Shown here: positions 2,614-43,045 of the stretch, in pieces | Layout of the letters: the number at the start of each line of letters is the position of its first letter | Numbering within the stretch: position 1 is the stretch's first letter | Assembly: GCF_001463745.1 (NCBI RefSeq) | Contig: NZ_BBWJ01000018.1 | Span: 1-64,000 of the forward strand | DNA from: Aureimonas sp. AU22 | GTDB taxonomy: Bacteria; Pseudomonadota; Alphaproteobacteria; Rhizobiales; Rhizobiaceae | Reading direction: 5' to 3' | Length of the DNA stretch: 64,000 nt | Translations under genes and position numbers: made by a program | Notes under the pieces: generated by a model | The model's database searches: none | The model's input: only the letters and a program-made list of their open reading frames with translations | Told to the model about the DNA's origin: nothing

Positions 2614-2657
2614 CCTCTTTCGAGGTTGCATTCCGAAGGCCGGGTTTCCCTGGCCTT
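2612..2657 (+). other. Two tandem hairpins between yajC and secDF
   Basis: Hairpin 1: AACCTC/GAGGTT around a TTTC loop (2612-2627), starting inside the yajC stop codon. Hairpin 2: AAGGCC-GGG / CCC-T-GGCCTT around TTT (2636-2657). Neither is followed by a T-run, so a simple intrinsic terminator is unlikely. mRNA processing or 3'-end protection that sets the YajC to SecDF ratio is possible. Confidence 0.45.
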
Positions 2658-2735
2658 CCCATCGTCGATCCGCCCGAGGGCGGCAACGGGCGGGGGCGGA
2701 AGCCACTCGCCCCCTCGCCATGATTCGAGGACGTC

Positions 2736-5324: not shown

Positions 5325-5325
5325 G

Positions 5326-6536: not shown

Positions 6537-6551
6537 GCGCGACGCCACGGA

Positions 6552-8297
6552 GTGCCCGACTTGAAGCTCGACCTATCCCGCGTTGTCCGCCTCCTGCGTT
6601 CGCTCGCGGTGCGGGCAGGGCAGGCTACCTTCCGCTTTCCTGCGGCGGCGGTAGCGATCTGCGCGATCGCTGCGATCGCGAACTGGGCCGTCGCGGAGGA
6701 CCTCGATACGGGCGATCCTCTGGCGCGTGCGCTTCTGGCGCTGACGGCCGGTGCGGCGGCCTCGGTCGCCGCGACGCTTTTCGCGGAAAGCCGAGGGGCC
6801 GGGCTGGGTCGCGCGCGACTGGCCGGATTTGCAGGGCTGGCGGTGGTGGGCGCCGCCGTCGGCTTCGCGCATCCGTTCCTACTCCATGGCCCCGCGCTGA
6901 CGATCGCCATCGTGACGGCGCTCCCCCTGTCGCCGTTTCTCGGGCGCGGTTCCTCTCGCACCTTCTGGTACTTCACGCTCTGGACCGCCCTCGGCGTCAC
7001 GCTCGGCTGGTTCTCCGTGCTGATCTTCCTGCTCGGGTTCACCGCCATCTTCGAAATGGTGCGGACGCTCTTCGGGATCGGCCTCGGCAGTTCGGCCTAC
7101 ACCCATCTCTTCACGACGGGCCTGACCCTTGTCGGCCCGCTCTTCGCGCTGGGCCGCATTCCCCATCCCGGCGAAGCCGAGGCGCATGACGGCGCCAGCG
7201 AGAGGCTGGCGCGCGCGGTTCGCCCCCTCTTCGAATGGGTCACGGCGCCGTTGGTGCTGATTGCAGGCGTCATCATCCACGTCTACGGCGCGAAGATCGT
7301 GGCTACCGGGGAGGTGCCGACGAACGAGATCGGCTGGATCGTCCTCCTCTATTCCGCCTTCGTACTGTCGCTTCGCGTCGGGCTCGAACCCTATCTCGCC
7401 GACCTGCCGCAGCCCGCCCGCTTCTTCTCGCGCTTCTGGGCCGCGATGCTGGTCGTCCCGCTCGCTCTTTTCGCCTATGCGCTCACGCTCCGCATCGCCG
7501 GGGAAGGGTGGACGATCGAGCGCTACTTCACGGTCGCATACGGTGTGGCCGCCGGCCTTGCCGTACTGCTTCAGGCGATTCCGCGGACGCGTTCGGACAT
7601 CCGGCTCGTCGTCGCCGTGCCACCGGTTCTGCTGGTGCTCTCGACGGTTAGCCCTTGGGGCGTCGCCGACACTGTAGGGCGAAGCCAGGCGGCCCTGATC
7701 GACGAACGGTATGGCGAGGTTCTACGGCGTGGTCCGGACGCGACGCGCAGTCTCGACGGGACGGCGCGATACAGTCTCGTCTCGCGTCTCGATGTCCTCG
7801 ATCAGGTGGACGAGGTCGATCGCCTCGCGCCGGTGCTCCATGCGATCGGAACAGGCGCGCCGGAGAGCCGGGTGGCCGCGCTGCGCACCGTTCTCGGTGA
7901 GGGCGCGACGCTGGAAGCGCAGGCGCTTCAGGATCGGGACGCAAGCTTTGCCGTGGATCAGCCTTGGGAAATCGGAGGCTTCGATCGCATCCTTCCGGCC
8001 ACCGACGCGTCCGCCTGGGCGGATGCCGCGACCGCGCCCGTTCGGCTGGAGGACGGCCGGATGGTGGTCAGCTACCGCGGTCGAACGGATCGGTTCGAGC
8101 TCGCACCCTCGCTCTCTCCCCCGAATGCGGATGGGTCCGCCGGCATTCTGCCGATGCTTTCGCTCGATCTGCGGTCGCCGGAAGGCCGGAACGTTCGGCT
8201 GCGTCTGTCGCATGTGCGCTGGAATGCGCAGGGCGCACCGGTCTTTCTGCAGGGGTGGCTGGCCTTGCGTCACGGCGAATGGGCAAGCCAGCCCTGA
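6552..8297 (+). CDS. DUF4153-family multi-spanning membrane protein
   Basis: The protein has 581 residues with a GTG start 15 bp after the previous gene. The N-terminal two thirds hold about ten to twelve hydrophobic helices (for example AAVAICAIAAIANWAVA, WIVLLYSAFVLSLRVGL). The last roughly 200 residues are soluble and begin near TVGRSQAALIDERYGEVL. The pattern corresponds to DUF4153 proteins, whose function is unknown. It is the last gene of the yajC-secDF-NDUFAF3-NDUFAF6 transcription unit and converges with trmFO 12 bp later. No catalytic motif was recognised. Confidence 0.72.
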   Translation: MPDLKLDLSRVVRLLRSLAVRAGQATFRFPAAAVAICAIAAIANWAVAEDLDTGDPLARALLALTAGAAASVAATLFAESRGAGLGRARLAGFAGLAVVGAAVGFAHPFLLHGPALTIAIVTALPLSPFLGRGSSRTFWYFTLWTALGVTLGWFSVLIFLLGFTAIFEMVRTLFGIGLGSSAYTHLFTTGLTLVGPLFALGRIPHPGEAEAHDGASERLARAVRPLFEWVTAPLVLIAGVIIHVYGAKIVATGEVPTNEIGWIVLLYSAFVLSLRVGLEPYLADLPQPARFFSRFWAAMLVVPLALFAYALTLRIAGEGWTIERYFTVAYGVAAGLAVLLQAIPRTRSDIRLVVAVPPVLLVLSTVSPWGVADTVGRSQAALIDERYGEVLRRGPDATRSLDGTARYSLVSRLDVLDQVDEVDRLAPVLHAIGTGAPESRVAALRTVLGEGATLEAQALQDRDASFAVDQPWEIGGFDRILPATDASAWADAATAPVRLEDGRMVVSYRGRTDRFELAPSLSPPNADGSAGILPMLSLDLRSPEGRNVRLRLSHVRWNAQGAPVFLQGWLALRHGEWASQP

Positions 8298-8309
8298 TCG
8301 GTTCGCGAG

Positions 8310-9725
8310 CTACTCCGCCGCTATGGGTAGAGGAGCTCGTTCGCCGGCGAGCCAGGCCGAGAAGTCCGCCAGGGCGCGCCGCGACATCGCCCGTTTCTTG
8401 GCCATGGTCTTCTCCTTGCCCCGCAGCCGCTTCCCCTCTTCGCGCGGCACCTCGACCGGCGGAAACAGGCCGAAGTTGACGTTCATCGGCTGGAACGAGC
8501 GCTTGCCGCCTTCCTCCTCCGTCGCAAGGTGTCCGCCAGTGATGTGCGCGAGAAGCGCGCCCATCGCGGTCGTTGCGGGCGGCGGGATAGCGGCGTTGCC
8601 TAGCGCCTCGGCCGCCGCGAAGCGTCCCGCCATCAGGCCGACGGATGCCGACTCGACATAGCCTTCGCAGCCCGTGATCTGGCCGGCAAAGCGCAGCGAC
8701 GGACGGCTCTTCAGGCGCAGCGTGCCGTCGAGAAGCGTCGGCGAGTTGAGGTAGGTGTTGCGGTGCAGGCCGCCGAGGCGGGCGAATTCCGCGTTCTCCA
8801 GACCCGGAATGGTGCGGAAGACGCGGACCTGCTCGGCGTATTTCAGCTTCGTCTGGAAACCCACCATGTTGTAGAGCGTGCCGAGCGCGTTGTCCTGGCG
8901 CAGCTGGACGACGGCATAGGCCTTCACGGTCGGGTTGTGGGCATTGGTGAGGCCCATCGGCTTCATCGGCCCATGGCGGAGCGTCTCGGGTCCGCGCTCG
9001 GCCATGACCTCGATCGGCAGGCAGCCGTCGAAATAGGGCGTGCCCTCCCACTCGCGGAACTCGGTCTTGTCGCCCGCGACCAGTGCGGCGACAAAGGCCT
9101 CGTACTGCTCGCGATCCATCGGGCAGTTGACGTAGTCCTTGCCCGTTCCGCCGGGACCGACCTTGTCGTAGCGGGACTGGAACCACGCCTTGCCCATGTC
9201 GATCGTGTCGAAGTGGACGATCGGGGCGATGGCGTCGAAGAAGGCGAGCGCCTCCGCGCCGGTCTCGGCCCGGATAGCCTCGGCGAGGGTCTCGGCCGTC
9301 AGCGGGCCGGTCGCGACGATCGTCTGGCCCCATTCGGCTGGCGGCAGCGTCGCGACTTCCTCGCGCGCGATGCTCACCAGAGGATGCGCCTCGAGCGCTG
9401 CCGTCACCGCTTCGGCGAACCCGTCCCGGTCCACAGCCAGGGCGCCGCCGGCGGGAACCTGATGGGCGTCGGCGCATCGCATGATGAGCGAGCCGGCGAG
9501 GCGCATCTCGGCGTGCAGCACGCCGACGGCGTTCGTTTCCGCGTCGTCGGACCGGAAGGAATTGGAGCAGACGAGTTCGGCGAGCGCGTCGGTCTTGTGC
9601 GCGTCGGTGCCGCGCGTGCCGCGCATCTCGTGCAGGACGACGGGAACGCCGCTCGTCGCCAGTTGCCACGCGGCTTCGGAGCCGGCGAGACCGCCGCCGA
9701 CGATGTGGATGGGATCTTGTGCCAT
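8310..9725 (-). CDS. trmFO: tRNA (uracil-54-C5)-methyltransferase, folate- and FADH2-dependent
   Basis: The protein has 471 residues. TrmFO makes ribothymidine 54 in the T-loop of tRNAs from methylenetetrahydrofolate and FADH2. It opens with the FAD-binding Rossmann motif [18 protein letters not shown], followed by the family segments [18 protein letters not shown] and [10 protein letters not shown] and later [20 protein letters not shown]. The last roughly 40 residues are basic ([17 protein letters not shown]). Length is normal for the family. The start is preceded on its strand by the terminator hairpin of the CCUCCUCCC small RNA, so trmFO probably has its own promoter or depends on read-through. 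Confidence 0.95.
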
Positions 9726-9900: not shown

Positions 9901-10044
9901 TTAGCGGCTCGCCTGACGGGCGAGGTCGCGGATGTCGGAGCGCGCGATGCCGAGATCCGAGAGCTCGCGGCTCGAAAGCCGATTCAGCTCGGCGCAGGTC
10001 TCGCGGAAACGGCGCCAGTTGTTGTAGGAGCGGACGATGTTCAT
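9901..10044 (-). CDS. DUF1127 small basic protein (47 residues)
   Basis: A short gene read directly from the sequence. It begins MNIVRSYNNWRRFRETCAEL and contains LNRLSSRELSDLGIARSDIR, the DUF1127 signature with an Arg-rich N-terminus and the L-x-D-L-G-I-x-R-x-D-I core. Members are about 40-60 residues. In Rhodobacter one of them (CcaF1) binds RNA and influences maturation of the CCUCCUCCC small RNAs encoded behind it; related rhizobial genes affect phosphate and carbon metabolism. Here the same partner RNA lies 10 bp downstream. A 15-bp perfect inverted repeat lies about 127 bp upstream of the start. Identification is firm; the RNA-related role is by analogy. Confidence 0.9.
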   Translation of the reverse strand: MNIVRSYNNWRRFRETCAELNRLSSRELSDLGIARSDIRDLARQASR

Positions 10045-10368
10045 GGGTTTGCCGATGGCTCAAACGTTGTGACCGAGAAGCGAAAGCCGATCGCCTTCGC
10101 TTCGATGAGCTGAATATAATCGGTTCAGTCGGCAGCAGTTATGCCGACGATTGCATGGCAGCCTTGCAGTTTGTGCATCGCACAATGGCGCGAGATCGTA
10201 GCTGCGAGCGGGTTCGATTAACGGTTTGTTAAGTGTCGGTGGGAGGGCGGGGCTCGCCTGCTGTTCCGCTTCGATGCTGAGGACGGAACTGCCCTTTTTC
10301 GCATGGTCGTTTGCACCGGCCGGTGCTATAGCGACGGCGCGCGATGCCGATCCGGACCCGCGCGGGCT
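10045..10368. promoter_or_regulatory. Intergenic region between DUF1127 gene and tRNA-Leu
   Basis: These 324 bp have no gene. They should hold the leader and promoter of the minus-strand DUF1127 gene and the promoter of tRNA-Leu; a TGCTATAG box (10324-10331) is a plausible tRNA -10 element. The perfect inverted repeat TTGTGC-ATC-GCACAA lies at 10171-10185. I could not fix a convincing -35/-10 pair for the DUF1127 gene. Confidence 0.4.
10171..10185. repeat. Perfect inverted repeat TTGTGC-N3-GCACAA
   Basis: A 6-3-6 dyad about 127 bp upstream of the DUF1127 start. The size and symmetry fit a dimeric regulator site, for example the T-N11-A layout of LysR-type proteins, a class reported to control DUF1127 genes in Brucella and Agrobacterium. 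Binding is inference. Confidence 0.4.
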
Positions 10369-10452
10369 GCGGATGTGGCGAAATTGGTAGACGCACCAGA
10401 TTTAGGTTCTGGCGCCAAAAGCGTGGGGGTTCGAGTCCCTCCATCCGCACCA
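10369..10452 (+). tRNA. tRNA-Leu (anticodon UAG)
   Basis: An 84-nt cloverleaf with encoded CCA. The acceptor stem GCGGATG (10369-10375) pairs with CATCCGC (10442-10448), followed by A and CCA. The anticodon stem-loop is CCAGA-TTTAGGT-TCTGG, giving anticodon TAG (Leu, CUN codons). A class II variable arm and the T-loop GGTTCGAGTCC are present. Confidence 0.96.
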
Positions 10453-10664
10453 GCTTGGTGGTAACACTCTCGAACGTGTCACGCGTGAATTCGGTGGCTA
10501 GGGTTCGAGATCGCTTTTCGCGGGCAATCGTCAGTCGTAGGGCTGTGCAACCGTTCCCAGGCCATCGACGCATTGAAGCCGGACGCAACCTCCAAGGGGA
10601 GGGGTTGAGAAATCCGACGCCATCATGCTTTTTGCGATCTGGTGAAACTTGGGGCGCCAGGGGC

Positions 10665-11885
10665 ATGAGTAAGGACGTTGCGTATACATGCCTTTTAGAT
10701 GCAAAGGTACAGGCTTACCTCTACCCAATTGTTGATGCACCGGTCGGCTTCCGCGGGGGGCCGGTTCTCACCGATGTCTCGCAGCAGCATTTCCGCCACC
10801 TGCGTCATGACTCGCCCTACGATCATTTTCAGGCGGACGCTGAATATCCTGCTCGGCTGCCGGGAGACTACTACTACGCCGGTCCGATCTACGATCACTT
10901 CGGGCATTTTTTGTCCGAGATGGTACACCGGATAGTGCCAGCGCACGCGCATGGAGGGAAACACAAGTTCTTGTTCGTGTCGTCGGACAAGACGGCGACC
11001 CCGCCAGATCTGCAAAGTGCTGCCCCCTACATCCGAGACATCCTTGAGTTCCTGGGAATCGACGCTGACAATTCAGTCGTAATCCGAGTGAACTCGATCG
11101 TAGAGCGCCTTCATGTGTTCGAACAGGGCGCGAGTTGGGGCGGCGCGCCTAAGGATGCGTACCTCGATGAACTGAGCCGTTTTTCAAGCGCCCGCCTCGA
11201 TGAGCTGTGTGGGCAGATCAAGCGACCAAAGAAAATCTACGTTTCTCGCTCAGCACTTCCTAAGGTCGGAGCCATCTTGGGAGAGGCCTACCTCGAGACG
11301 GTACTCGCCGATGAAGGATTCGAGGTGTTTCGGCCTGAGCAGCATTCCTTCGCTGTCCAGATGGACCACTATCGGAAGGCCGAAACCATTGTCTTCGCGG
11401 AGGGATCCGCTGCGCATGGTGCTGAACTTCTCGGATCGAGAATGATGGGCTCGGTCGTTCTGGTTCCCCGGTCGCAGCAGGCCTACGTTTTCGAGCGGGT
11501 CCTCCGTCCTCGGTCACGCCAATTCCTGCGCGCCAACGTGACGCGATACCTCGGCACCGTGAAAGAGAATTCTTCCGATGGATCTCCCTTGTTCCACCGA
11601 GGCGTCACGCTGCTACGGCCGAAGATCGCCGTCGAAACCTTCCGAACGAATTCCGTTTCACCGATGCGTGCGTTTTCTAAGGTGGGCTATCTGAAGTCAG
11701 CCGTTACGGACCTTAGAACCTACTTCAAGGATGCCGCGTGTCTGCCAGAACCGTTTAATTGCCGTTATGCCGTTGCACTTGCAACGCGGTTGGCATTCGG
11801 GTGGATTGGCCGTGAACGGGTAAGATCCAAGACACAAAAAGTGCGCGGGAAGACGAAAAGCGGCTGGCCTTCGCGGCCGCGGTGA
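10665..11885 (+). CDS. Glycosyltransferase family 61 (DUF563)-type protein
   Basis: The protein has 406 residues. Features of the DUF563/GT61 family are visible: GDYYYAGPIYDHFGHFLSEM near the N-terminus, the basic segment RPKKIYVSRS about half way, and the acceptor-region motif IVFAEGSAAHGAELLG. Members transfer sugars onto polysaccharides or glycans in the cytoplasm or at the membrane. I chose the ATG at 10665 because the frame upstream runs through the tRNA-Leu. By eye, base composition is clearly less GC-rich than the neighbours, and the gene stands alone between tRNA-Leu and tig, so it may be a later acquisition. The substrate cannot be told from the sequence. Confidence 0.72.
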   Translation: MSKDVAYTCLLDAKVQAYLYPIVDAPVGFRGGPVLTDVSQQHFRHLRHDSPYDHFQADAEYPARLPGDYYYAGPIYDHFGHFLSEMVHRIVPAHAHGGKHKFLFVSSDKTATPPDLQSAAPYIRDILEFLGIDADNSVVIRVNSIVERLHVFEQGASWGGAPKDAYLDELSRFSSARLDELCGQIKRPKKIYVSRSALPKVGAILGEAYLETVLADEGFEVFRPEQHSFAVQMDHYRKAETIVFAEGSAAHGAELLGSRMMGSVVLVPRSQQAYVFERVLRPRSRQFLRANVTRYLGTVKENSSDGSPLFHRGVTLLRPKIAVETFRTNSVSPMRAFSKVGYLKSAVTDLRTYFKDAACLPEPFNCRYAVALATRLAFGWIGRERVRSKTQKVRGKTKSGWPSRPR

Positions 11886-12092
11886 TGCAAGCCTTGCCGT
11901 CATTATCGCCACTTGATCCCCCAGTGGCCCTCCACTACAAGCGCCCGATGGCCGGGTGATGGGTGTTGCGTTCCGACAGCCCGTGGCGTGCTGGTCCGGT
12001 TCTCGGCCCGCGCCGGCTTGGCGGCAAACGAGATTCACTTCAGGATCGGCGGCGGGACTTGGGCTGCCGGTCGAGACCATAAAGGGTTGACG

Positions 12093-33546: not shown

Positions 33547-35061
33547 ATGGCAGTTGTGAGCGTTGAACGGCAGGAGCGGCTGGACGAGGCGGGGGGCATC
33601 CTCAGTCTCGAAGCATCGCTGGCCTTGTCGGCCGATGAGGCCAACGGGCTGTTTGCGCAGCACCTCAACCGGCACATGCTCCAGCTCTTCGACATTCTCG
33701 GCCTCAAGGACCTGGACATCCGGGGCGCGCAGGGGACCGAGATCTGGCTGAACGACGGCCGCACGCTCCTCGACTTTTCCGGTGGTCTGGGCGTCCTGGG
33801 CCTTGGCCACAATCACCCGCGGATCATCGCCGCCGAGCGCCGCTGCCACGAGCTGAAGGTCATCGACTGCATCAAGCTGGCGCCGCACAAGCTGCAGGGC
33901 GCGCTTGCCTACAACATCGCCCAGTTCCTTCCCGACCCGCTGCAGGTCTCGTTTCTGGCGGTTTCCGGTGCCGAGGCGAACGAGGCGGCGATGAAGCTGG
34001 CCGAGCGCGTGCAGACGCCGAAAGGCAAGAAGAAGTTTCTCTGCATGCGGGGCGCTTTCCACGGGAAGACGCACGGCGCCCTCTCGCTCACCACGGCCAC
34101 CGACGTCCAGACGGGTTTCCTGCTCGGGGTTCCCAAGGAGAACGTCATTTACGCGACCTATGGCGATCTCGGTTCGCTCCGAGCCGCCATCAAGGAGGCC
34201 ACCGACGAGCGGGGTCGCAACGACATCATCGGCGCGATCGTCGAAACCGTGCACGGTACGACCTGCGAGCTGCTTCCGCCGGGTTATCTCCGGGAGTTCG
34301 TCCAGCTCTGCCGGCAGAACGAGATCCTTTCGATCTTCGACGAGATCAAGGTGGGGATGGGCCGAAGCGGCCGTTTCTGCGCCTTCCAGCACGAGGAGGG
34401 CGCCATCCCCGACATCGTCACGATGGCCAAGACGCTCGGTGGGGGCAAGCGCGAAGTCGCGGCCATGGTCACGTCGCAGGCGCTGTTCGACCGCGCCTAC
34501 GGCAACAAGAAGGACTGCACCCTGCACAGTTCGAGCTTCAGCGGGCTGGGCGAAAGCTGCGCCGTCGCGATCGAAACGCTCAACATCCTGCAGGACGAAC
34601 GGTTGATCGAGCGCGCCGAAGCGATGGGCGCCTATCTGTCGGACAGGCTCCACGCGCTGCGGGACAAACATCCGTCCTGCATCCTGGAGGTCCGGGGACG
34701 TGGCTTGTTCCAGGCCCTTCGCCTGAACTTTCGTCAGGACATGGCGTCGAAGCTGGTCGACGTGTCGAGCAATCCGCTTTTCCGGACCTATCAGACGGTT
34801 CTGATCGGTTCGCTGACGCGGGAGCTTCTCGAACGCCACGAACTCCTCGTGCACTTCCAGCCGGGCGCGCGCGACCTTCTCCATTTCATGCCGCCCTTTA
34901 CGGTGAAGGAAGAGGAGATCGACAAGCTGGTGTCCGCCCTCGACGACGTGCTGACGCGCGGGATCGCCGACGCCACGGTCAACTTCGTCGGCAAGAATAT
35001 CCGACGCGTCTTTGGCGATCTGCGCGACAGGCAACCGGAGCGGCGTGATGTCGGTGCATGA
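33547..35061 (+). CDS. Class III PLP-dependent aminotransferase (operon gene 1)
   Basis: The protein has 504 residues from the ATG at 33547, with GAGAGG just upstream. Fold type I motifs: LLDFSGGLGVLGLGHNHPRI, VSGAEANEAAMKLAERV, DEIKVGMGRSGRF and the PLP lysine Lys295 in VTMAKTLGGGKRE. Class III enzymes move amino groups to terminal aldehydes or ketones (omega-aminotransferases, or HpnO of aminohopanoid synthesis). A roughly 45-residue N-terminal extension precedes the core. The last 14 bases overlap the next gene. In context I infer it aminates an aldehyde made by the GMC enzyme of the same operon. The substrate is not proven. Confidence 0.88.
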   Translation: MAVVSVERQERLDEAGGILSLEASLALSADEANGLFAQHLNRHMLQLFDILGLKDLDIRGAQGTEIWLNDGRTLLDFSGGLGVLGLGHNHPRIIAAERRCHELKVIDCIKLAPHKLQGALAYNIAQFLPDPLQVSFLAVSGAEANEAAMKLAERVQTPKGKKKFLCMRGAFHGKTHGALSLTTATDVQTGFLLGVPKENVIYATYGDLGSLRAAIKEATDERGRNDIIGAIVETVHGTTCELLPPGYLREFVQLCRQNEILSIFDEIKVGMGRSGRFCAFQHEEGAIPDIVTMAKTLGGGKREVAAMVTSQALFDRAYGNKKDCTLHSSSFSGLGESCAVAIETLNILQDERLIERAEAMGAYLSDRLHALRDKHPSCILEVRGRGLFQALRLNFRQDMASKLVDVSSNPLFRTYQTVLIGSLTRELLERHELLVHFQPGARDLLHFMPPFTVKEEEIDKLVSALDDVLTRGIADATVNFVGKNIRRVFGDLRDRQPERRDVGA

Positions 35062-36622
35062 GACGAGCCGATTCTTCAAGCCCGTCAGCGGGGCAGCGCT
35101 CGCGCGACATACGCCGGCGCGCGTCTGGCCGATCGTTCTCGTTCTCCTGTCGGCTGTGCTGTTCCTGGTGAACACCCGCCACGGCATCGGGGTCTATGTC
35201 GACAGCACGCGCTACATGGGCCTCAGCGTCATCCCCTACGACGCTCCCCTCTACCCCTGGCTCCTGAACCTGCGGGTACTGTTCGGGCTGTCGATCGACG
35301 GTGCCGCCGAGGTGCTGGGGCTCCTGTTCGTCTGCGCCAATACGGCGCTGATCTGGCATCTCATCTTCCGGGGAACCCGCAGCGTCTGGCTCTCCTCGCT
35401 CGGCACCGCACTGGCCGTAGTCTCACCGCAGTTCGTCACGCTGCATGCCTTGGCGATGTCGGAGCCGCCGTTCCTGTTCCTGTTGCTTCTCACCATGCTG
35501 CTGTTCCTCCTGTATCTGGAGGCGCGCAGCCCGGCGCTGCTCGTCGCCTGCGCGCTCGCGCTGGGACTCGCTGCACTAGCGCGGTTCACCGCGCCGGCTC
35601 TCGGTGCTGCGGTCGCGCTCTTCCTGCTGCTGGACGCGCGACTTCCCCTCCGCCGACGCATCTCCGACATCGCCTTGTTCGCGGGCGTCAGCGGAGCCGT
35701 GTTCTTCGGTTGGGCTGCGTTCAGCCAGACGACGGAAGGGCATTCCATCGGCCGCGAGCTGCGCTTCCACGGGAACATGGGGCCGAAGGAGTGGCACGAC
35801 AGCCTCGAAGCGCTGACGGCCTGGCTGCTGCCCGATGAGGTGCCGTTCGTGCTGCGCGTCGCTCTTCTCGTCGTGGTGGCCGCGACCGTTGCCGTCCTCG
35901 CGTTGCGCGAGATCCGCAAGTTGGCGAGCGCATCCCCGCAGTCCGGTGCCGACACCGGTGCGGACCTTGCAGCGCTGCTGGCCTTCTTCATCGTCGGCTA
36001 CCTGGCGTTCATGGTTCTGGCGACCTCCGTCGAGGCCAATCTGGCGCTGAACGGCCGCTATGCATTCCCGGCCTATGTCGCGGCCGTGATGCTGACGTCG
36101 ATCGTCGCGGCTCGTATCGACATCGGCAGTCGCCGCCCGGCCACCGTGCTGGTCGGACTGCTCGCCGTCGCGGCGGCCGTTCTGCCGAGCCACATGCTGC
36201 GCACGGCCATGCGATCGGCGGACGCCTATCGTTCGGGTGTGGGATACGCGTCCGTGAACTGGCGCCAGTCGCCGACGGTCGCCGCTGTCGCCGCCCTGCC
36301 GCCGAACGCCCAGCTCTTCACGAACGGGCAGGATGCGGTCGCCTACCTCATCCGGCGGCCGTCGCAGCTCATTCCGAACCATTTCGAACTGCGGACCGGC
36401 CTTCCGGACCCCGAGCGACCCTGGGATCTCCAGATCGACGAACTCCGGGCCGCTCTGCAGCAGCCGGATAGCTACGTGGTCTTCTTCGACCAGATCGACT
36501 GGCGTTTCTATCAGGCGCGGGAGGACGAACTCGTCGCGGCCCTGCCACTGACGCTCGTCAGCGAGCAAGAAGACGGGCGTATCTACCGGCTGAAACCGAC
36601 TGCCAGCATGCCTCAGACCTGA
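35048..36622 (+). CDS. GT-C-like multi-spanning membrane glycosyltransferase (operon gene 2)
   Basis: The protein has 524 residues with about eleven hydrophobic helices. The first (IVLVLLSAVLFLV) is followed by a short loop with DSTRYMGLSVIPYDAPLYPW, an acidic loop as in GT-C/PMT-family transferases that use polyprenyl-phosphate sugars at the periplasmic face. A C-terminal soluble domain contains ALPPNAQLFTNGQDAVAYLI. It overlaps the aminotransferase gene by 14 bp and precedes the UbiA gene by 23 bp. I read it as the transferase that places the lipid-carried sugar on its acceptor. The fold is by pattern only. Confidence 0.65.
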   Translation: MSVHETSRFFKPVSGAALARHTPARVWPIVLVLLSAVLFLVNTRHGIGVYVDSTRYMGLSVIPYDAPLYPWLLNLRVLFGLSIDGAAEVLGLLFVCANTALIWHLIFRGTRSVWLSSLGTALAVVSPQFVTLHALAMSEPPFLFLLLLTMLLFLLYLEARSPALLVACALALGLAALARFTAPALGAAVALFLLLDARLPLRRRISDIALFAGVSGAVFFGWAAFSQTTEGHSIGRELRFHGNMGPKEWHDSLEALTAWLLPDEVPFVLRVALLVVVAATVAVLALREIRKLASASPQSGADTGADLAALLAFFIVGYLAFMVLATSVEANLALNGRYAFPAYVAAVMLTSIVAARIDIGSRRPATVLVGLLAVAAAVLPSHMLRTAMRSADAYRSGVGYASVNWRQSPTVAAVAALPPNAQLFTNGQDAVAYLIRRPSQLIPNHFELRTGLPDPERPWDLQIDELRAALQQPDSYVVFFDQIDWRFYQAREDELVAALPLTLVSEQEDGRIYRLKPTASMPQT

Positions 36623-36645
36623 CGACGAACCATCGGGAGTGGACG

Positions 36646-37674
36646 ATGCCGAACGGTATTATGCAGTCACAAGCGAGTTTGCGGACCGCGCGTGGTTCGC
36701 TGCGTGAATACCTCGCGATCGCGCGCTTCGACCATGCCACGAAGCATGTCTTCATCATCCCCGGCATCATCATCGCCTACGCTCTGCGCGAGCCCACGCT
36801 GAACTACGCCATCGCGGAAATTCTGACGGGGTTCCTCAGCGCGATCGCGATCGCGTCGGCGAATTACGTCATCAACGAGTGGCTGGATCGCGAGTTCGAC
36901 GCCTTCCATCCCAACAAGCAGAACCGGACGTCCGTCCAGTGGGTGCTCTCGCCGACCCTCGTCTATTGCGAGTACGCGCTCTTCGCGGTCGTCGGGCTCC
37001 TTCTCGCATCCTTCGTGACGCCGGCGTTTTTCTATACCTCGGTGCTCTTTCTCTGCTCCGGCGTGCTCTACAACGTTAGACCGATCCGGACCAAGGATCG
37101 CCCGTTCATCGACGTCATATCCGAGTCGGCCAACAATCCGATCCGGCTGATGCTGGGCTGGACGATGATCGAGACCACCACCATACCGCCGATGAGCCTG
37201 CTGCTGGCGTATTGGGCGGGCGGCGCCTTCCTGATGGCGGCCAAGCGCCTCTCCGAGTACCGCGACATCTCGGCTCGGGCGGGCGTCGAGACCCTGGTCC
37301 GCTACCGCCGGTCGTTCCAGCATTACACCGCGGAAAACCTCACCGTCTCGTGCTTCCTGTACGCGATGATGTCGGCCTTCTTCATCGCCGTGTTCCTGAT
37401 CCGCTACCGGATGGAATACGTCTTCGCGCTTCCCTTCATCGCGATCCTCTTCGCGTCCTACCTCTGGCTTTCGCTCCGCCGCAACTCCATCGCTCAGCGG
37501 CCGGAGCGCATGTTCCGGTCCCGCAGGCTGGTCGGCTCGCTGAGCCTCGCCGTGCTCGCCATGGTCACGATGTCCTTCCTCGACATGCCCTTCCTCTACA
37601 AGGTGCTGAAGCGGGACTTCATCCCCGTCGACATCCAGGACTATCGCGCGCAAACCAACGGTCAGCACAAATGA
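36646..37674 (+). CDS. UbiA-family prenyltransferase, DPPR-synthase-like (operon gene 3)
   Basis: The protein has 342 residues with eight to nine membrane helices. The first Asp-rich motif NYVINEWLDREFDAFHPNKQ (Asp81, Asp85, His88, Lys91) matches the H-P-x-K form found in decaprenyl-phosphate phosphoribosyltransferase. The second region reads FIDVISESANNPIR, and a KRLSEYRD segment resembles the KRxxE part of that subfamily. Those enzymes move 5-phosphoribose from PRPP to a polyprenyl phosphate. Homogentisate- or hydroxybenzoate-type activity is less likely. The stop codon overlaps the HAD start (ATGA). GGGAG lies 8 bases before the ATG. Subfamily call is moderate. Confidence 0.78.
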   Translation: MPNGIMQSQASLRTARGSLREYLAIARFDHATKHVFIIPGIIIAYALREPTLNYAIAEILTGFLSAIAIASANYVINEWLDREFDAFHPNKQNRTSVQWVLSPTLVYCEYALFAVVGLLLASFVTPAFFYTSVLFLCSGVLYNVRPIRTKDRPFIDVISESANNPIRLMLGWTMIETTTIPPMSLLLAYWAGGAFLMAAKRLSEYRDISARAGVETLVRYRRSFQHYTAENLTVSCFLYAMMSAFFIAVFLIRYRMEYVFALPFIAILFASYLWLSLRRNSIAQRPERMFRSRRLVGSLSLAVLAMVTMSFLDMPFLYKVLKRDFIPVDIQDYRAQTNGQHK

Positions 37675-38435
37675 ACACGTCCGTGGACTGGCGCGCGGTC
37701 GATCTGGTGATCTTCGACGTCGACGGGACGCTCTACGACCAGTCGCGGCTGCGTCTGCGGATGGCGCTGGAAATGGCCGGAAGCGCTCTGGCCGGCGGGG
37801 GGGCGCGCGATCTTCGCATCGTGCGATCGTACCGCCGCCACCGCGAACGGCTCGCCGAGATGGAGAGCGAGACGTTCGTCGAAAGCCAGTTCGTCGATGT
37901 GGCGGCGGACGTCGACGCAACGCCCGAGCTCGTGCGCAAGGTTGTCGCGGAATGGATGGATCGTCGCCCGTTGCGCCATCTCGCGTCCTCTCGCTATGCG
38001 GGCGTGGAACGGCTCTTCGAAGCGTTGCGGCGTTCCGGACGCGGCATCGCGGTCTTGTCGGATCACCCCGCCGAGGCCAAGCTCGACGCGCTCGGCCTCA
38101 AGTCCGACCTGACCGTCTCGGCTTGCGATCCGAACGTGCGTCGCCTGAAGCCGCATCCGGCAGGGGTGCGGCACATACTTTCCGTGACGGGAACGTTGGC
38201 CCAACGCGCCCTGTTCATCGGGGACCGGTTCGAACGCGATTGGCTGGCTGCCGCACGGGCCCAGGTTCCCGCGCTCATCCGGTCGCGGCTGCGGCACCCA
38301 CGCTGCGCGACCTTTCGGTCGTACCGCTCGGACGTCTTCGCAGCCCTCGGGTGCGATCTCGGTTCCGCTTCGGCCGCCTGGGGCAGTCCACCTGCCGCCC
38401 ACGCCGGTGCCGCGTACCATGCTCGCGAGCTTTGA
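37671..38435 (+). CDS. HAD-superfamily hydrolase (operon gene 4)
   Basis: The protein has 254 residues. HAD motifs: motif I FDVDGTLYDQ (nucleophile Asp and acid Asp), motif II VLSDHPAEAK (Ser), motif III RLKPHPAG (Lys) and motif IV IGDRFERDW. A C1-type cap is inserted after motif I. HAD proteins with D-x-D are mostly phosphatases. It starts inside the UbiA stop codon (4-base overlap) and overlaps the next gene by 17 bp, so the products are made together. The likely task here is removal of the 5-phosphate from the UbiA product; this is inference. Confidence 0.85.
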   Translation: MNTSVDWRAVDLVIFDVDGTLYDQSRLRLRMALEMAGSALAGGGARDLRIVRSYRRHRERLAEMESETFVESQFVDVAADVDATPELVRKVVAEWMDRRPLRHLASSRYAGVERLFEALRRSGRGIAVLSDHPAEAKLDALGLKSDLTVSACDPNVRRLKPHPAGVRHILSVTGTLAQRALFIGDRFERDWLAAARAQVPALIRSRLRHPRCATFRSYRSDVFAALGCDLGSASAAWGSPPAAHAGAAYHAREL

Positions 38436-38787
38436 CCGTTGCGTCGGCGCCATCGCCGAAGTCGTCGCGCGGCGCGAACTTGGCGCACCGACGGACTCGC
38501 AGGTCGATGATGTGGCGCGCTTCCTGCGCGAGGTCCTGCGCCAGATGCCCGACTACCTCCGGATCGCGTTCCGCATCCTCACCATCGTCTTCGACGCGTC
38601 CGCGCTCTTGTTCCACGCCAAGCCGTTCCACCGTTTGCCGCTCGGCGCTCGCGCTCGGCTCGTCGATGCCTGGTCGAGGACCGCGGTTCCGTTCGCCCCG
38701 AGCTTCATTGCCTTCTTCGTGACGTTCGGCACCTTCTGCGTCTCCTCGGATCTTCACGGGGGCGAGGATGCCGCCGCGGTTCGATGA
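38419..38787 (+). CDS. Small helical protein preceding GMC oxidoreductase (operon gene 5)
   Basis: The protein has 122 residues from the ATG at 38419; a GTG at 38407 would add 4. No family motif is certain. The sequence is mainly helical (DDVARFLREVLRQMPDYLRI, then FRILTIVFDASALLF and FHRLPLGARARLVDAW), with one moderately hydrophobic stretch near the end (APSFIAFFVTFGTFCV). It resembles the short helical segment joined to the N-terminus of some long-chain alcohol oxidases. It overlaps the HAD gene by 17 bp and the GMC gene by 20 bp. I infer a subunit or anchor of the GMC enzyme. Confidence 0.6.
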   Translation: MLASFDRCVGAIAEVVARRELGAPTDSQVDDVARFLREVLRQMPDYLRIAFRILTIVFDASALLFHAKPFHRLPLGARARLVDAWSRTAVPFAPSFIAFFVTFGTFCVSSDLHGGEDAAAVR

Positions 38788-40228
38788 TCCGCCCCGCAAG
38801 CTATCGACCGACGTCCTCGTCATCGGATCGGGGCCTGGCGGGTGCGTGACCGCGACCGTGCTAGCGGATGCCGGGAAGGATGTCCTGGTTCTGGAGGAAG
38901 GCGCGGACCTTTCGATCCACTCCGCCCCGCATTTCTCCCGCGAGGAGATCCTGCAGAAGTATCGCAACGCCGGCATCGGGCTCGCTCACGGACCGCTGAG
39001 CGTCGCTTATGTCGAAGGGCGGTGCGTGGGAGGTGGCAGCGAGGTCAATCGCGGCCTGTACCATCGCACACCGGACTACGTGCTGGATGAGTGGAGCCGC
39101 GAGTTCGGCGTCGATCGCCTTTCGTCCGAAGTGCTGCGGCCGCATTTCGAAGCCTGCGAAAGCGTCGCCCGGGTGGAAGCTCCTCCGGAGGGGGTGTCGC
39201 GCGTGTCCGCGAAGCTCGGCGACGGTGCGTCGCGTTTGGGATGGGAGGCGACGGTCGCCCAGCGCCTGGTCCGCTACGGTGCGGAGACGAGGGGGCGCGA
39301 TCGCCAGACGATGACCGAGACGTTTGTGCCGCGCTTCCAGTCCAGGGGAGGGCAGCTGATCACGCGAACCCGCGTCGAACGCATGTCCCGCTCGGGGGGA
39401 CGGTGGCATGCTCACGCGCGGCAACACACGGACGACGGCGCGGAACGATCCGTCGAGATCGTCGCGAACACGGTCTTCGTCGCCTGCGGGGCCGTCCAGA
39501 CCCCGGCATTGCTTCGTCGCGCCGGCATCGGTCGCAACATCGGCGACAGCCTGCGCTTTCACCCCATGGTGAAGATCGTGGCGGAGTTTCCCGACGAGGT
39601 GAACCGTCCCGGCGACCTCGATCCGGTGCATCAGGTCAAGGAGTTCGAGCCCACCATCGGCATGGGCTGCTCAGTCACGCGCCGACCGATGCTGAAGCTC
39701 GCCACCGCCCATCTCGGGGACGATTCCGCCTACGTGGACGCGAACTGGCGGCGGATGGGCATCTACTATGCCCAGACCACGGGCGGGCGGGCGAGCGTGC
39801 GCAACCTGCCGTTCATGCGCGATCCCCTGGTCCGCGTCCGCCATTCGACCCAGGACCGGATCGACCTCGCCCGCGCCTTCCGGCTGTTGGCCGAAGCGCT
39901 ATTCGCGGCTGGCGCGCTCGCGCTTTATCCCGCGGTCGCCGGATACCCCGTGCTGCGCTCTCCGCTGGATCTTTGCGGCCTTCCCGACGTGTTCGCCGGG
40001 GCCGACGGCAGCCTGACGTCGGTCCACGTCTTCTCGTCCTGCCCGATGGGCGAAAACGAACGCCGATGCGCCACCGACTCGTTCGGCGCCGTCCGCGATG
40101 TGGACGACCTTCACATCGCCGACGCTTCGCTGCTCTGCGGGCCGACCAGCGTCAATCCGCAGGGAACCGTGATGGCAATCGCCCATCGAAATGCGATCCA
40201 CGCTCTCGAGCGCGGTTTGCGGCACTAG
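38768..40228 (+). CDS. GMC-family flavin oxidoreductase (operon gene 6)
   Basis: The protein has 486 residues. The N-terminal FAD-binding Rossmann motif is DVLVIGSGPGGCVTATVLAD, followed by VEGRCVGGGSEVNRGLYHRT, typical of GMC oxidases and dehydrogenases. The C-terminal substrate domain has the active His in HVFSSCPMGENE and the Asn in GPTSVNPQGTVMAIAHRNA. GMC enzymes oxidise alcohols to aldehydes or ketones. There is no signal peptide. It starts within the previous gene and leads into the flippase after 17 bp. With a class III aminotransferase in the operon, oxidation of a primary alcohol followed by amination is a coherent reading. Confidence 0.88.
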   Translation: MPPRFDDPPRKLSTDVLVIGSGPGGCVTATVLADAGKDVLVLEEGADLSIHSAPHFSREEILQKYRNAGIGLAHGPLSVAYVEGRCVGGGSEVNRGLYHRTPDYVLDEWSREFGVDRLSSEVLRPHFEACESVARVEAPPEGVSRVSAKLGDGASRLGWEATVAQRLVRYGAETRGRDRQTMTETFVPRFQSRGGQLITRTRVERMSRSGGRWHAHARQHTDDGAERSVEIVANTVFVACGAVQTPALLRRAGIGRNIGDSLRFHPMVKIVAEFPDEVNRPGDLDPVHQVKEFEPTIGMGCSVTRRPMLKLATAHLGDDSAYVDANWRRMGIYYAQTTGGRASVRNLPFMRDPLVRVRHSTQDRIDLARAFRLLAEALFAAGALALYPAVAGYPVLRSPLDLCGLPDVFAGADGSLTSVHVFSSCPMGENERRCATDSFGAVRDVDDLHIADASLLCGPTSVNPQGTVMAIAHRNAIHALERGLRH

Positions 40229-40245
40229 GAGAGCGAGGACGGGTC

Positions 40246-41361
40246 ATGAGCGACGTTCGACCGCCTGCTGCCCCGGTTCACTTTTCCCCTGGTGAGCTCA
40301 GTGCGCTTCCGGCCGTCCCGATATCGCTGCGTTCCCGCGTCCGCCTGTTCCTCGATCGTCACGCGGCGTCCGGCCTGCGTGTCGGGCTGGGATTGCTGCT
40401 CGGCGCCGTCTTCACGGCGCTGGTTCTTCGAACGGTCGATCTCGACGCGGTCTACGACCTGCTTGCGAAGGCCTCCGTCCTCCCGGTGGTGGTGGGCTTG
40501 TGCGCCTTCGTTCTCGACTTCGTTCTGCGCGCCGCTCGGTTCTCCTGGATGTTGCGGTTGGCGATGGGGCAACCTGTTCCGCTTCGTCGCTCGGTTGGCC
40601 CCTACATCGCGAGCTTCGGCGTAAGCGACATTCTTCCCCTGCGGATCGGCGACGGGTTCCGGATCCTCTGGTTCAGCCGTCGCTTCGTGATTCCGGTCGG
40701 CACCTTGGCCGGAACCATGATCATGGAGCGCGTCTTCGATCTCCTCACGATCGTGATCCTGTGCGGCCTCTGCCTCGCGTGGGTGGACGTGCCCGAGGCG
40801 ACGCTCCTCGTGCAGGTGCTCCTACTCGCTCTCGCGGTCTCCCTCGTCGGCGGGTTGTGTCTTCTGTTCGGCCCGTCGTTGCTCGCGAGAGCCCTTGGGT
40901 ACCTGTCCCGGCGTTTCCGCATCGCCTTCCTGGATCGCCCGGTTGCGTTTCTCCAGGTGAGCGCGCAAGCCATCGGCAGCGTGAGATCATGGCGTCACGT
41001 TGGGTCGCTCGCCGTCCTTTCGCTTGGTCTATGGCTTCTGGAGAGCGTCGCCATGATCGGGGCTTGGGTCAGCCTCGGAGGCGATGTCGGCGCCTGGCTC
41101 AAACCGCTTCTGGCTTTCTCGTTCAGCACGCTCGGCACGATGGTGCCAAGCCTTCCCGGTCATTTCGGCACATTCGAGTTCTTCGGGCTGCAGGCGTTCA
41201 AACTCGGCGCCGTGGACGAGAACATGGCCGCTGCCGTCCTGCTCCTCGCCCACCTCGTCATCTGGCTCCCGACAGCGCTTTTCGGCATCGGCTGGCTTTT
41301 GCTCGGTGCAAACGTATCGAAAGGGCAGGTGGTCCCTCTCGCCCGCCCGGAGCAGGGTTAA
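40246..41361 (+). CDS. LPG-synthase-TM/flippase-like membrane protein (operon gene 7)
   Basis: The protein has 371 residues with about eight membrane helices and the family segments DFVLRAARFSWMLR, SDILPLRIGDGFRILWFSRR, GTMIMERVFDLLTI and PSLPGHFGTFEFFGLQAFKL. This is the LPG_synthase_TM (flippase-like) family, whose members move or help to move lipids or lipid-linked sugars across membranes, for example MprF and AglD. It lacks the soluble lysyl-transferase part of MprF. As the last gene of the operon it is a good candidate to flip the polyprenyl-linked sugar before the GT-C protein uses it. A small hairpin lies 12 bp after the stop. Confidence 0.8.
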   Translation: MSDVRPPAAPVHFSPGELSALPAVPISLRSRVRLFLDRHAASGLRVGLGLLLGAVFTALVLRTVDLDAVYDLLAKASVLPVVVGLCAFVLDFVLRAARFSWMLRLAMGQPVPLRRSVGPYIASFGVSDILPLRIGDGFRILWFSRRFVIPVGTLAGTMIMERVFDLLTIVILCGLCLAWVDVPEATLLVQVLLLALAVSLVGGLCLLFGPSLLARALGYLSRRFRIAFLDRPVAFLQVSAQAIGSVRSWRHVGSLAVLSLGLWLLESVAMIGAWVSLGGDVGAWLKPLLAFSFSTLGTMVPSLPGHFGTFEFFGLQAFKLGAVDENMAAAVLLLAHLVIWLPTALFGIGWLLLGANVSKGQVVPLARPEQG

Positions 41362-41518: not shown

Positions 41519-43045
41519 ATGGAAGCATCCAGACACATGACCGGCCTTCCGGTCCTGCCCGAAGCCGCACGCGCCTATCGCGACGCGTTACCGAAGGGCC
41601 GCTTCGTCGGGTTTCCGTTGCACGGTCTGGATCGGACCGGCGTTCGTGCCTGGAAGGTCGCCCTGTTCCTCGACGACGCCGCGGCTCTCCCCGGCAACCT
41701 GCCGTCCGGCTACGGCTACGGCTTCGACGACGACACGGCGCTGATCGGCGCCTTCGCGGAGATCGCCGAAGCCATCCTGCCGACGCTGCGCCTGATGGAC
41801 GAGCCGCGCTGGATCGACAGCTATCTCGCCTTGCGCGCGGAGCGAGGCGAGGGCGCGATCGTCGATCCGCTGACGCTTTGCCTTCCGGCCGGAAGCCCGG
41901 TGACGCACGACACGCCGCTCGCCTGGATCGAAGCGCGGCGGCGGCGGACGGGCGAGCCCGTGCTGGTGCCCATGGATGTGGCGGCGACGGATTATTTCGA
42001 GCTTCCCGCGGGCTACCAGCCGTTCACCACGCTGATCACCAATGGACTGGGCGCAGGCCCCGATCTCGAGTGGGCCATGGGCCATGGCATCCTCGAGCTC
42101 CTCCAGCGAGACGGCAACGGCCTCGGGTTCCGCGCTCTCGACAAGGGGATCGTCCTCGACATCGATCCGGCGGATCTCGACGACCAGACGCGCGGGCTTC
42201 TGCAACACCTCGATGCCGTCGGGATCGAGGTCATCGCGAAGTTCGCCAGCGACGAGTTCGGGCTGGCGAACGTCTACGTCATCGGCTTCGATCGGCCGGG
42301 CTTCGGGCCCCGCACGCCGATCATGCTGTCGGCCTGCGGCGAGGCCTGCGATCCCGATCGCGCCACGGCGCTGCGCAAGGCGCTCTTGGAGTTCTGCTCG
42401 GCGCGCGTTCGCAAGAGCTACGCACACGGACCCATGAGCGAAGCGCGGAGCGTCGCCCCGGCAGGCTTCATCGAGGACTTCCTCGACCAGGCGATGCCGA
42501 GCCTCGTGGGCGGCGAGAGCCGTGCCTTCACCACCATGCGCGATTGGTCGACGCGTGAAGCCGATAGCCTGAAGACCGCGCTGGACGGCTCGGTCTACGC
42601 CCGCCGGTCCACCAAGCCGTTCCGCGAACTTCCCGCGACGCCGCTTCCCACGAGCCGCGAGCGCGGGCGCTTTGCGGCCGAAGCGCTGGAAGCGGCCGGC
42701 TTCGACGTTCTCGTCGTCGACGGCTCGCCGCGCGACGGAAGCGTCGGCGTCGCCAAGGTCATCGTGCCCGGTCTCGAGGTCGAGACGATGAGCTACTATC
42801 GGATCGGGGAGCGCAACACGCGCCGTCTGATCGAGGCGGGAAGCGATCTCGTGCGTTTCGGCGGGGAAAGCGAGACATTGCGCCCGGTGCGACTGACGCC
42901 GGAAGCACTGGAACGCCTCGGCGGACGTCAGCCGCTTCTCGACACGGCGGCGGTGGATCGCGCGGTCGGGCCGCTCTATCCGCTGTATCGCGAGCCGGAA
43001 GCTCTCCACGTCGCCTGGAGCCTGGAACAGCCGGCCACTCGCTAG
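41519..43045 (+). CDS. YcaO-domain protein without an adjacent TfuA or peptide gene
   Basis: The protein has 508 residues; an ATG at 41537 would remove 6. The YcaO domain is seen in GFDDDTALIGAFAEIAEAIL, TTLITNGLGAGPDLEWAMGH and GILELLQRDGNGLGFR. The last keeps the E-x3-x-R-D frame but has Gln where E. coli YcaO has Glu (ERD). YcaO proteins activate a peptide amide with ATP to form azolines, thioamides or amidines, or help RimO on ribosomal protein S12. No TfuA gene, dehydrogenase or clear precursor peptide lies beside it. Its stop overlaps that of a sugar permease gene by 4 bases. The function is open. Confidence 0.75.
   Translation: MEASRHMTGLPVLPEAARAYRDALPKGRFVGFPLHGLDRTGVRAWKVALFLDDAAALPGNLPSGYGYGFDDDTALIGAFAEIAEAILPTLRLMDEPRWIDSYLALRAERGEGAIVDPLTLCLPAGSPVTHDTPLAWIEARRRRTGEPVLVPMDVAATDYFELPAGYQPFTTLITNGLGAGPDLEWAMGHGILELLQRDGNGLGFRALDKGIVLDIDPADLDDQTRGLLQHLDAVGIEVIAKFASDEFGLANVYVIGFDRPGFGPRTPIMLSACGEACDPDRATALRKALLEFCSARVRKSYAHGPMSEARSVAPAGFIEDFLDQAMPSLVGGESRAFTTMRDWSTREADSLKTALDGSVYARRSTKPFRELPATPLPTSRERGRFAAEALEAAGFDVLVVDGSPRDGSVGVAKVIVPGLEVETMSYYRIGERNTRRLIEAGSDLVRFGGESETLRPVRLTPEALERLGGRQPLLDTAAVDRAVGPLYPLYREPEALHVAWSLEQPATR

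Follow-up and report, generated by a model that had tools for sequence, protein, structure and literature searches.

The three-component pentofuranose addition systems of Citrobacter youngae O1/O2 (Kelly et al. 2024, PMC11127046) are the closest described counterparts of the locus considered here. According to the available part of that paper, they comprise a UbiA-type PRPP:polyprenyl-phosphate phosphoribosyltransferase (PPPRS), a HAD phosphoribose phosphatase (PRP), a flippase, and a GT-C glycosyltransferase, with an SDR epimerase as an optional addition, and the routes presented there end in the neutral sugars Ribf, Xylf, and Araf. The same text reports an alignment of the ORF13 epimerase with GalE and notes an SMR exporter in mycobacteria; the words "aminotransferase" and "oxidoreductase" have no occurrence in the available portion of its main text. 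Judged by sequence, the core of our operon is a variant of these systems, a published context that an earlier note on this DNA had missed.

The operon lies in a window of 64,000 nucleotides, the whole stretch of Aureimonas sp. AU22 DNA that was analyzed. Recomputation from the window sequence returned the seven genes, coordinates, and junctions listed in the earlier note: seven + strand ORFs, each ATG-initiated and in frame, with successive junctions of -14, +23, -4, -17, -20, and +17 bp (minus denotes overlap). In order, they encode a class III aminotransferase (AT), a GT-C-like protein, a UbiA protein, a HAD phosphatase, a small helical protein, a GMC flavoprotein, and a flippase-like protein, and the family calls made previously agree with the Pfam matches of six of them, the small protein having no significant family match. 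A search for the same arrangement elsewhere, as the earlier note had advised, recovered the order AT-GTC-UbiA-HAD-small-GMC in four further genera (Mesorhizobium, Sinorhizobium, Novosphingobium, and Sphingobium), and this recurrence argues that the operon order is not due to chance.

The UbiA protein and the proposed first step

From its ligand residues and fold, the window UbiA protein (36646..37674, + strand, 342 aa; Pfam UbiA, 1.8e-23) looks like a PRPP:polyprenyl-phosphate phosphoribosyltransferase, and the DPPR-like assignment made in the earlier note is supported. Its top NCBIfam model is decaprenyl-P phosphoribosyltransferase (74 bits, under the cut-off of 234), and 8j8j heads both the PDB profile search (3.4e-10) and the Foldseek ranking (8j8j_A, E 4.3e-8, TM 0.70/0.82). 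The comparison with Rv3806c that had been recommended earlier gave 8j8j as the top fold match together with a residue map in which 10 of 13 Rv3806c ligand residues are kept. K28, Y70, K87, and K191 are kept in the window protein and absent at those columns in the genome's quinone UbiA and CtaB, while the departures fall at Q135, Y157, and K208; Q135 and Y157, both changed, are contacts of ribose O3 and the 5-phosphate.

The A. fulgidus UbiA follows as a close second in Foldseek (E 4e-7), so the substrate is not settled by fold alone. This ranking and the generic nature of the Pfam UbiA match would suit an ordinary quinone, heme, or chlorophyll prenyltransferase within an operon that modifies a prenylated small molecule, a reading we consider highly improbable, since the residue map and top fold match indicate Rv3806c and the genome encodes a separate UbiA and CtaB elsewhere, both above their cut-offs. 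In a tree of 24 rows with long branches and one quinone plus one heme enzyme as the outgroup, the window UbiA branches apart from the quinone and heme enzymes encoded by the genome, as the residues also indicate; a grouping with such enzymes was the outcome that the earlier note had named as counting against it. On the tree, the residue map, and those two enzymes encoded elsewhere, a quinone/heme role was rejected. Rv3806c itself joins the UbiA of a second cluster in the same genome (described below) and that of locus L122 (support 95), outside the window UbiA type.

The HAD gene (37671..38435, + strand, 254 aa; Hydrolase PF00702, 2.2e-16; DxD motif D16/D18) overlaps the UbiA gene by 4 bp, and a HAD match adjoins UbiA in most UbiA-seeded loci, with none found in L044 and L047. 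The phosphatase previously placed beside UbiA can be retained as a HAD-family protein with an overlapping gene.

Gene linkage and the proposed fate of the lipid-linked sugar

Taken together, we think the operon probably, though far from certainly, builds a polyprenyl-phosphate-linked amino-pentofuranose and then uses it. UbiA would move 5-phosphoribose from PRPP to polyprenyl phosphate, as its residues and fold suggest, and the HAD protein would take the 5-phosphate off the lipid-linked phosphoribose. The GMC protein with its small helical partner would oxidize a ring hydroxyl, most likely that at C2, to a ketone, which is the role of DprE1 in mycobacteria, and the AT would convert this ketone to an amine. 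The LPG-type protein would then flip the lipid and the GT-C protein would attach the amino-pentose to a surface acceptor. In sister loci, reduction of this oxo-sugar by an extended SDR could yield an epimer, either replacing amination or accompanying it.

The GMC flavoprotein (38768..40228, + strand, 486 aa; GMC_oxred_N, 8e-27; GMC_oxred_C, 4.7e-15) has relatives of 45-57% identity in the UbiA-seeded loci, with H420 and N463 invariant in 17/17 aligned sequences, and it matches sugar, sterol, and choline oxidases similarly weakly. Directly upstream is the small all-helical protein (38419..38787, + strand, 122 aa), a putative GMC partner that is probably the small subunit of the enzyme. It has no significant Pfam family match, and no relatives emerged from Foldseek, VIA-align, or a profile search against the PDB; its helical nature, stated in the earlier note, is upheld by a predicted model of five helices (pLDDT 90.7). 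What that note missed was the link to the GMC: an HMM of the small-protein relatives matches, at E 0.001-0.011, the ORF directly upstream of the GMC in 5 distant GMC loci. Gluconate_2-dh3 (PF13618), a small-subunit type found with FAD dehydrogenases, is matched weakly by 2 of 18 members of the family (best E 0.015), and a profile comparison with plasmid small proteins gave a probability of 47%. Conceivably, the protein might be an N-terminal domain split off a long-chain alcohol oxidase, and the negative fold and profile searches do not argue against this.

Linkage was counted across 81 UbiA-seeded loci, with GMCs of the window type scored above a set limit and the SDR genes of L055 and L056 included. 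AT, GMC, and SDR occur together in 12 loci, AT and GMC in 6, and GMC and SDR in 7 (6 once loci cut off on the AT side are left out), whereas neither a GMC alone nor an AT without GMC was seen. The pairing of GMC and class III aminotransferase proposed earlier is therefore evident in all 18 AT loci, and each of the 25 GMC loci has an AT, an SDR, or both, although "never alone" applies only to window-type GMCs at the score limit used. The SDR, present in 12 AT+GMC and 7 GMC loci, had escaped the earlier note. That note had also expected the GMC and AT to be kept with UbiA in related genomes; both are kept in the 11 loci heading the list (L037-L047) and in 18/81 overall, but 55/81 more distant loci have neither (nor an SDR), and the pair therefore marks a sub-type. 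Another FAD protein family occurs in L041, L070, L072, L076, and L115, where the window GMC does not match it.

It is conceivable, if unlikely, that the GMC and SDR only turn lipid-linked ribose into its epimer Araf or Xylf, in the manner of DprE1/DprE2, with the AT acting elsewhere, for example upon an acceptor lipid or glycan. GMC+SDR loci lacking an AT do exist, and the SDR resembles HpnA, OleD, and GalE, the last of which was also aligned with ORF13; by this analogy the SDR may be a self-sufficient epimerase rather than a reductase. However, no SDR gene, often part of the set elsewhere, adjoins the window operon, and no close SDR was found in the window genome or the genomes of the 6 AT+GMC loci (7 genomes searched). 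The best SDR of these genomes reached 33-34% in four and an E between 1e-14 and 1e-12 in three, and in two of those four (G000 and G153, for which stretches were fetched) it is a second-cluster member. Besides the absence from these loci of any AT without GMC, the GT-C type shifts with the AT: the GT-Cs divide by presence of AT in a tree (support 96), with the window GT-C (35048..36622, + strand, 524 aa; PMT_2, 1.4e-7) in the AT-associated branch and one copy in each branch in Rhizobium sp. Root1334 (L057). The flippase-like membrane protein (40246..41361, + strand, 371 aa; LPG_synthase_TM PF03706, 1.1e-32; TIGR00374, 55.4 bits, cut-off 43.2), which like the GT-C keeps its earlier family call, belongs to a type present in 17/18 AT loci and 0/6 GMC+SDR-only loci with the AT side not cut off.

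The AT (33547..35061, + strand, 504 aa; class III, PLP; Pfam Aminotran_3, 2.4e-69) has a Schiff-base-type Lys295 within AKTLGGG and relatives of 59-81% identity in the UbiA-seeded loci; none was found on plasmids at E 1e-70. It resembles known transaminases, among them PigE and putrescine aminotransferase, which lends some weight to the version in the earlier note, whereby the GMC turns the C5-OH of polyprenyl-P-ribose, exposed by the HAD step, into an aldehyde and the AT yields a 5-amino-5-deoxy-pentose, much like the flavin oxidase and class III aminotransferase that together modify CH2OH groups of aminoglycosides. Class III enzymes often yield primary amines, which would also favor C5, as would the presence of AT and GMC without SDR in 6 loci and the window. 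Nonetheless, we judge C5 oxidation improbable, if slightly less so than epimerization alone. In 6 loci this GMC is accompanied by an SDR but lacks an AT, a combination also seen with distant GMCs, and a ketone can be reduced to an epimer, whereas reducing an aldehyde back yields nothing new; moreover, a sister AT shares a cluster with a homologue of DprE1, a C2-acting enzyme, in the same genome. A ketone, at C2 more likely than C3, fits better. As AT and SDR are together in 12 loci, amination and reduction are possibly sequential or at different carbons, and the GMC need not feed the AT.

The sister AT belongs to a second cluster of the genome (G000:C15, L118), comprising a HAD-UbiA fusion (631 bits, above the cut-off of 351), a DprE1 homologue (337.5 bits, under the cut-off of 500; PDB DprE1 match, 1.3e-64), an ArnF-like SMR (54.7 bits, under the cut-off of 99), and an SDR. 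In 18 of the 19 loci examined, this AT is accompanied by the DprE1 homologue, and the two AT groups join as sisters in a tree rooted with six other class III ATs of the genome. Given this parallel, the GMC plausibly plays DprE1's part, with the AT aminating the oxo-sugar. More tentatively, a lipid-linked amino-pentofuranose pathway may have been built twice in alphaproteobacteria, with sister class III ATs combined with DprE1 in one case and with an unrelated flavin oxidase, a two-part GMC, in the other. Both oxidases would act on polyprenyl-phosphate-ribose, and each version would have a separate flippase; the oxo-sugar would be a branch point between epimerization (SDR) and amination (AT), the latter leading to a new amino-sugar donor.

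Comparison with known systems

The earlier note regarded the combination as undescribed. Its core is already published in the available part of PMC11127046, but no amino-pentofuranose lipid pathway was found in the literature searched, which covered few subscription papers and no bioRxiv preprints. If the amino branch is true, rhizobia and sphingomonads would gain a route, besides the Arn pathway, to positive envelope charge. The DprE1 step, a mycobacterial drug target, would be replaceable by an unrelated flavoprotein, and these loci would be a source of enzymes for making unusual sugar donors.

With the three-component system, as described in the available text of PMC11127046, the operon shares a gene for a probable UbiA-type PPPRS as well as HAD-family, flippase-like, and GT-C-like genes. 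It differs in that its HAD is separate from UbiA and that it adds the GMC, the small partner, and the class III aminotransferase; further, the flippase there is of the MATE family, whereas gene 7 is LPG_synthase_TM/TIGR00374. The GT-C there is of family GT136; the GT-C-like protein of the operon matches PMT_2. The arabinose pathway of mycobacteria, with Rv3806c and DprE1/DprE2 (PMC10994848, PMC11127046, both as available in part), likewise has a DPPR-synthase-like first step and the flavin oxidation of lipid-linked ribose that we propose here. DprE1, however, is FAD_binding_4, a family other than GMC_oxred_N/C, and the operon adds amination. The second cluster has UbiA, HAD, a flavin oxidase, and a sister AT in common with the operon, and an SDR in common with the operon's relatives, but its HAD is fused to UbiA, its oxidase is of the DprE1 type, and its transporter is an ArnF-like SMR. 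A small protein and GMC also occur together, adjoined by an SDR, in the GMC cluster of pNGR234a (L142) and its rhizobial plasmid relatives (9 records with a GMC match). Unlike the operon, the 4 of 9 inspected have no AT annotated or matched, an SMR transporter, and a GMC of 33-35% identity, with UbiA within the fetched stretch in 3/4.

The aminoglycoside 6'-oxidase and its class III aminotransferase carry out flavin oxidation of a sugar CH2OH followed by PLP amination. Likened by description, this pair parallels the flavin-then-PLP sequence proposed for the operon, but acts on free aminoglycosides and at a primary alcohol. Finally, the aminotransferase of the Arn (undecaprenyl-P-Ara4N) pathway, ArnB, of the DegT/DnrJ type, acts on a UDP-4-keto-pentose, whereas the operon AT is a class III Aminotran_3 enzyme.

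Composition and distribution of the operon

The seven-gene operon at 33547..41361 (forward strand) is real and conserved. When the ORFs were re-derived and the junctions recomputed, the genes, strand and spacings (-14, +23, -4, -17, -20 and +17 bp) all agreed with the earlier note. Genes 1-4, 6 and 7 belong to the Pfam families Aminotran_3, PMT_2, UbiA, Hydrolase (HAD), GMC and LPG_synthase_TM, respectively, and gene 5, encoding a small helical protein, has no significant Pfam family. Among NCBIfam models, gene 7 exceeds the cut-off of TIGR00374 and gene 4 that of the broad HAD-SF-IA-v1, while the best models for the class III aminotransferase (AT; PigE, 242 bits vs a cut-off of 850), the GMC flavoprotein (MftG, 74 vs 400) and UbiA (74 vs 234) score far below theirs. 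About 157 bp downstream lies a YcaO gene (41519-43045; SagD-like, 90 bits vs 219), which is probably separate from the operon. Elsewhere in the window, 10001-12000 has a G+C content of 0.58, vs 0.63-0.70 in the other 2-kb blocks, and adjoins a tRNA-Leu gene (10369-10452); it is possibly an inserted segment.

A scan of genome contigs with a UbiA alignment yielded 395 confirmed relatives, the best 80 of which, plus L037 from the same family as the window, formed a set of 81 loci (L037-L117) in which AT, GMC and a frequent partner gene, SDR, were counted by summed bit score. All three occur in 12 loci, AT and GMC in six (the window being one more such case), GMC and SDR in seven (L048, L058, L060, L062, L063, L065 and L074), SDR alone in one (L059, where the stretch ends inside SDR), and none in 55. 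Thus, AT is accompanied by GMC in 18/18 loci and GMC by AT and/or SDR in 25/25. As L048 stops at a contig end upstream, where AT presence is not readable, the six other GMC+SDR loci were used as AT-less; one of them, L074, comes from a 14.9 kb MAG contig. The LPG-type flippase-like gene lies within the stretch in 17/18 AT loci (the exception is L044) and in 0/6 of the AT-less loci; its orientation is opposite to that of AT in 17/17, and only in the window is it co-directional with the operon. No HAD match was found in L044 and L047, the small gene of L044 was detected by HMM, and a HAD match stands beside UbiA in 39 of the 55 loci lacking AT, GMC and SDR.

Several neighboring features were also encountered. 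GMC is split over two frames in L037 (6803-8285) and L043 (11029-13552), as is HAD in L043, which may reflect decay or sequencing error. A second FAD-protein family, which the window GMC did not single out, recurs near UbiA (L041, L070, L072, L076 and L115), and a GtrA-like family, so named from annotation, occurs in 26/87 loci (L031-L117). On a plasmid of Rhodobacter sp. CZR27 (L032, 6329-10481), a window-type UbiA comes after an 885-aa gene with a haloacid dehalogenase-like annotation and before a GtrA gene, in a region adjoining nap nitrate reductase genes.

AT was further searched in 14 genomes or records and SDR in 11 genomes. Among the genomes with AT-less GMC+SDR loci, those of L058, L062 and L065 have as sole AT a second type (37-38%), and those of L060, L063 and L074 only generic class III matches (best-scoring 30-34%). 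The window's genome and those of L038, L039, L041, L042, L043 and L045 lack a close SDR (60% or more), whereas the remaining 4/11 have one. Therefore, AT without SDR and SDR without AT are both true genome-wide states in these samples. Among 397 genomes of the order, drawn without the family genome G057, only the window's carries an AT of at least 55%; the second type (36-41%) occurs in 20 further genomes (21/397 including the window's), and GMC at E 1e-60 in just two further genomes (36-37% identical). Among 151 family genomes, a close UbiA is limited to the window's and G057 (69%), with no UbiA match in the sole same-genus genome examined. The distribution of the operon is sporadic, which fits a variable surface trait.

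UbiA as the proposed first step

The window UbiA has no second match in its own genome at E 0.001, and when the PDB was searched with an 8-row UbiA profile, Rv3806c (8j8j, 3.4e-10) and A. fulgidus UbiA (5.5e-5) were the sole matches at E 0.01. The same two lead the Foldseek matches of its AlphaFold2 model (pLDDT 88.3): 8j8j (E 4.3e-8, TM 0.70/0.82, rmsd 3.2), then the A. fulgidus protein (E 4.0e-7). When ligand residues of Rv3806c were mapped from passages of PMC10994848, R22, K28, Y70, N73, D77, K87, R90, Y138, K143 and K191 proved to be retained (window R27, K33, Y74, N77, D81, K91, R94, Y142, K150 and K200), with differences at Q135, Y157 and K208. These ten are common to 18/18 rows of window-type UbiA. 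The genome's quinone UbiA and CtaB retain 6/13 and 5/13; both lack K28, Y70 and K87 and have a gap in the K191 column. In a quick tree with one quinone and one heme enzyme as outgroup, the 18 window-type rows, a second-cluster UbiA from the same genome, L122 and Rv3806c split from the outgroup (SH-aLRT 98), and Rv3806c falls outside the window type with the second-cluster UbiA and L122 (95), both placements being subject to the caveat of long branches. The grouping with quinone or heme prenyltransferases that, according to the earlier note, would have refuted its proposal did not occur, as judged from the tree and the residue map. We infer that the window UbiA probably transfers 5-phosphoribose from PRPP to polyprenyl phosphate.

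The probable site of oxidation and the proposed fate of the oxo-sugar

His420 and Asn463, which have a catalytic role in GMC enzymes, are invariant in 17 aligned GMC proteins. The association of GMC with the small protein probably extends to distant relatives: an HMM of the small protein matches the ORF directly upstream of GMC in 5/5 distant GMC loci (L121, L122, L142, L143 and L144), with E values of 0.001-0.011 that are individually marginal, although the position is identical each time, and apart from close relatives no other match at E 1 or better was present in that ORF set. All five clusters, including that of pNGR234a, contain SDR and an SMR gene (recognised by sequence rather than family search in L121 and L122), and AT was found in none of them. 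UbiA is present in L121, L122, L142 and L143 and absent from the L144 stretch, which is truncated where the record begins; a Mesorhizobium plasmid that carries the GMC accession of L144 (L145) has UbiA at a greater distance. The pNGR234a cluster (L142, 6040-14105), located on a symbiosis plasmid, comprises SDR, SMR, small protein, GMC, a hypothetical protein of 658 aa, a second SDR and a HAD-UbiA-like gene; its genes are presumably those named y4n, under which no relevant paper was found in the library searched.

The second cluster of the window's genome (contig C15, L118) encodes a HAD-UbiA fusion (868-2310), a DprE1 homologue (2303-3652), an ArnF-like SMR (3792-4232), SDR (4229-5242) and a class III AT (5255-6709), followed on the minus strand by a long ORF (6768-8558) with no Pfam match at 1e-5. 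With six further class III ATs from this genome as outgroup, window-type (10 rows) and second-type ATs (11 rows) each form one group, and the two join as sisters. Across 19 loci with the second type (the window genome, L119, L120 and 16/20 further genomes, leaving out G375, G395, G474 and G528), the DprE1 homologue is present in 18 and all five genes in 16; L123 lacks SMR and SDR, L133 lacks SDR, and L134 has only SMR, SDR and AT.

The earlier note had GMC oxidising the 5-OH to an aldehyde, a scheme that now appears less likely than oxidation at C2. An SDR could convert a ketone to its epimer, whereas it would merely revert a C5 aldehyde. Furthermore, the sister AT adjoins a DprE1 homologue, and DprE1/E2 are the enzymes that bring about inversion at C2 of decaprenyl-P-ribose (passages of PMC11127046). 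Since GMC is always found with AT, SDR or both in the counted loci, the simplest joint reading is that GMC would produce a C2 ketone, which AT would convert to an amine. Oxidation and amination could conceivably take place at C3 instead.

A possible change of donor and known systems

The GT-C tree, from which the partial L048 was omitted and for which L074 has no match, separates an AT branch (19 rows) from a no-AT branch (8 rows) with support of 96. The no-AT rows all belong to Rhizobiaceae or Phyllobacteriaceae, and their kinship could contribute to the split. However, Rhizobium sp. Root1334 (L057) has both GT-Cs, the AT-adjacent copy falling in the AT branch and the UbiA-adjacent copy in the no-AT branch. 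This pair within a single genome suggests that AT alters the donor.

The core of the operon corresponds to the three-component system outlined by Kelly et al. 2024 (PMC11127046), which consists of PPPRS, a flippase and a GT-C, with SDR or DprE1/E2 epimerases. Neither "aminotransferase" nor "oxidoreductase" occurs in the main text of that paper (0 times each), and a library-limited literature search found no aminating version of the system. The new points are the proposed aminating branch and the proposed replacement of DprE1 by GMC.
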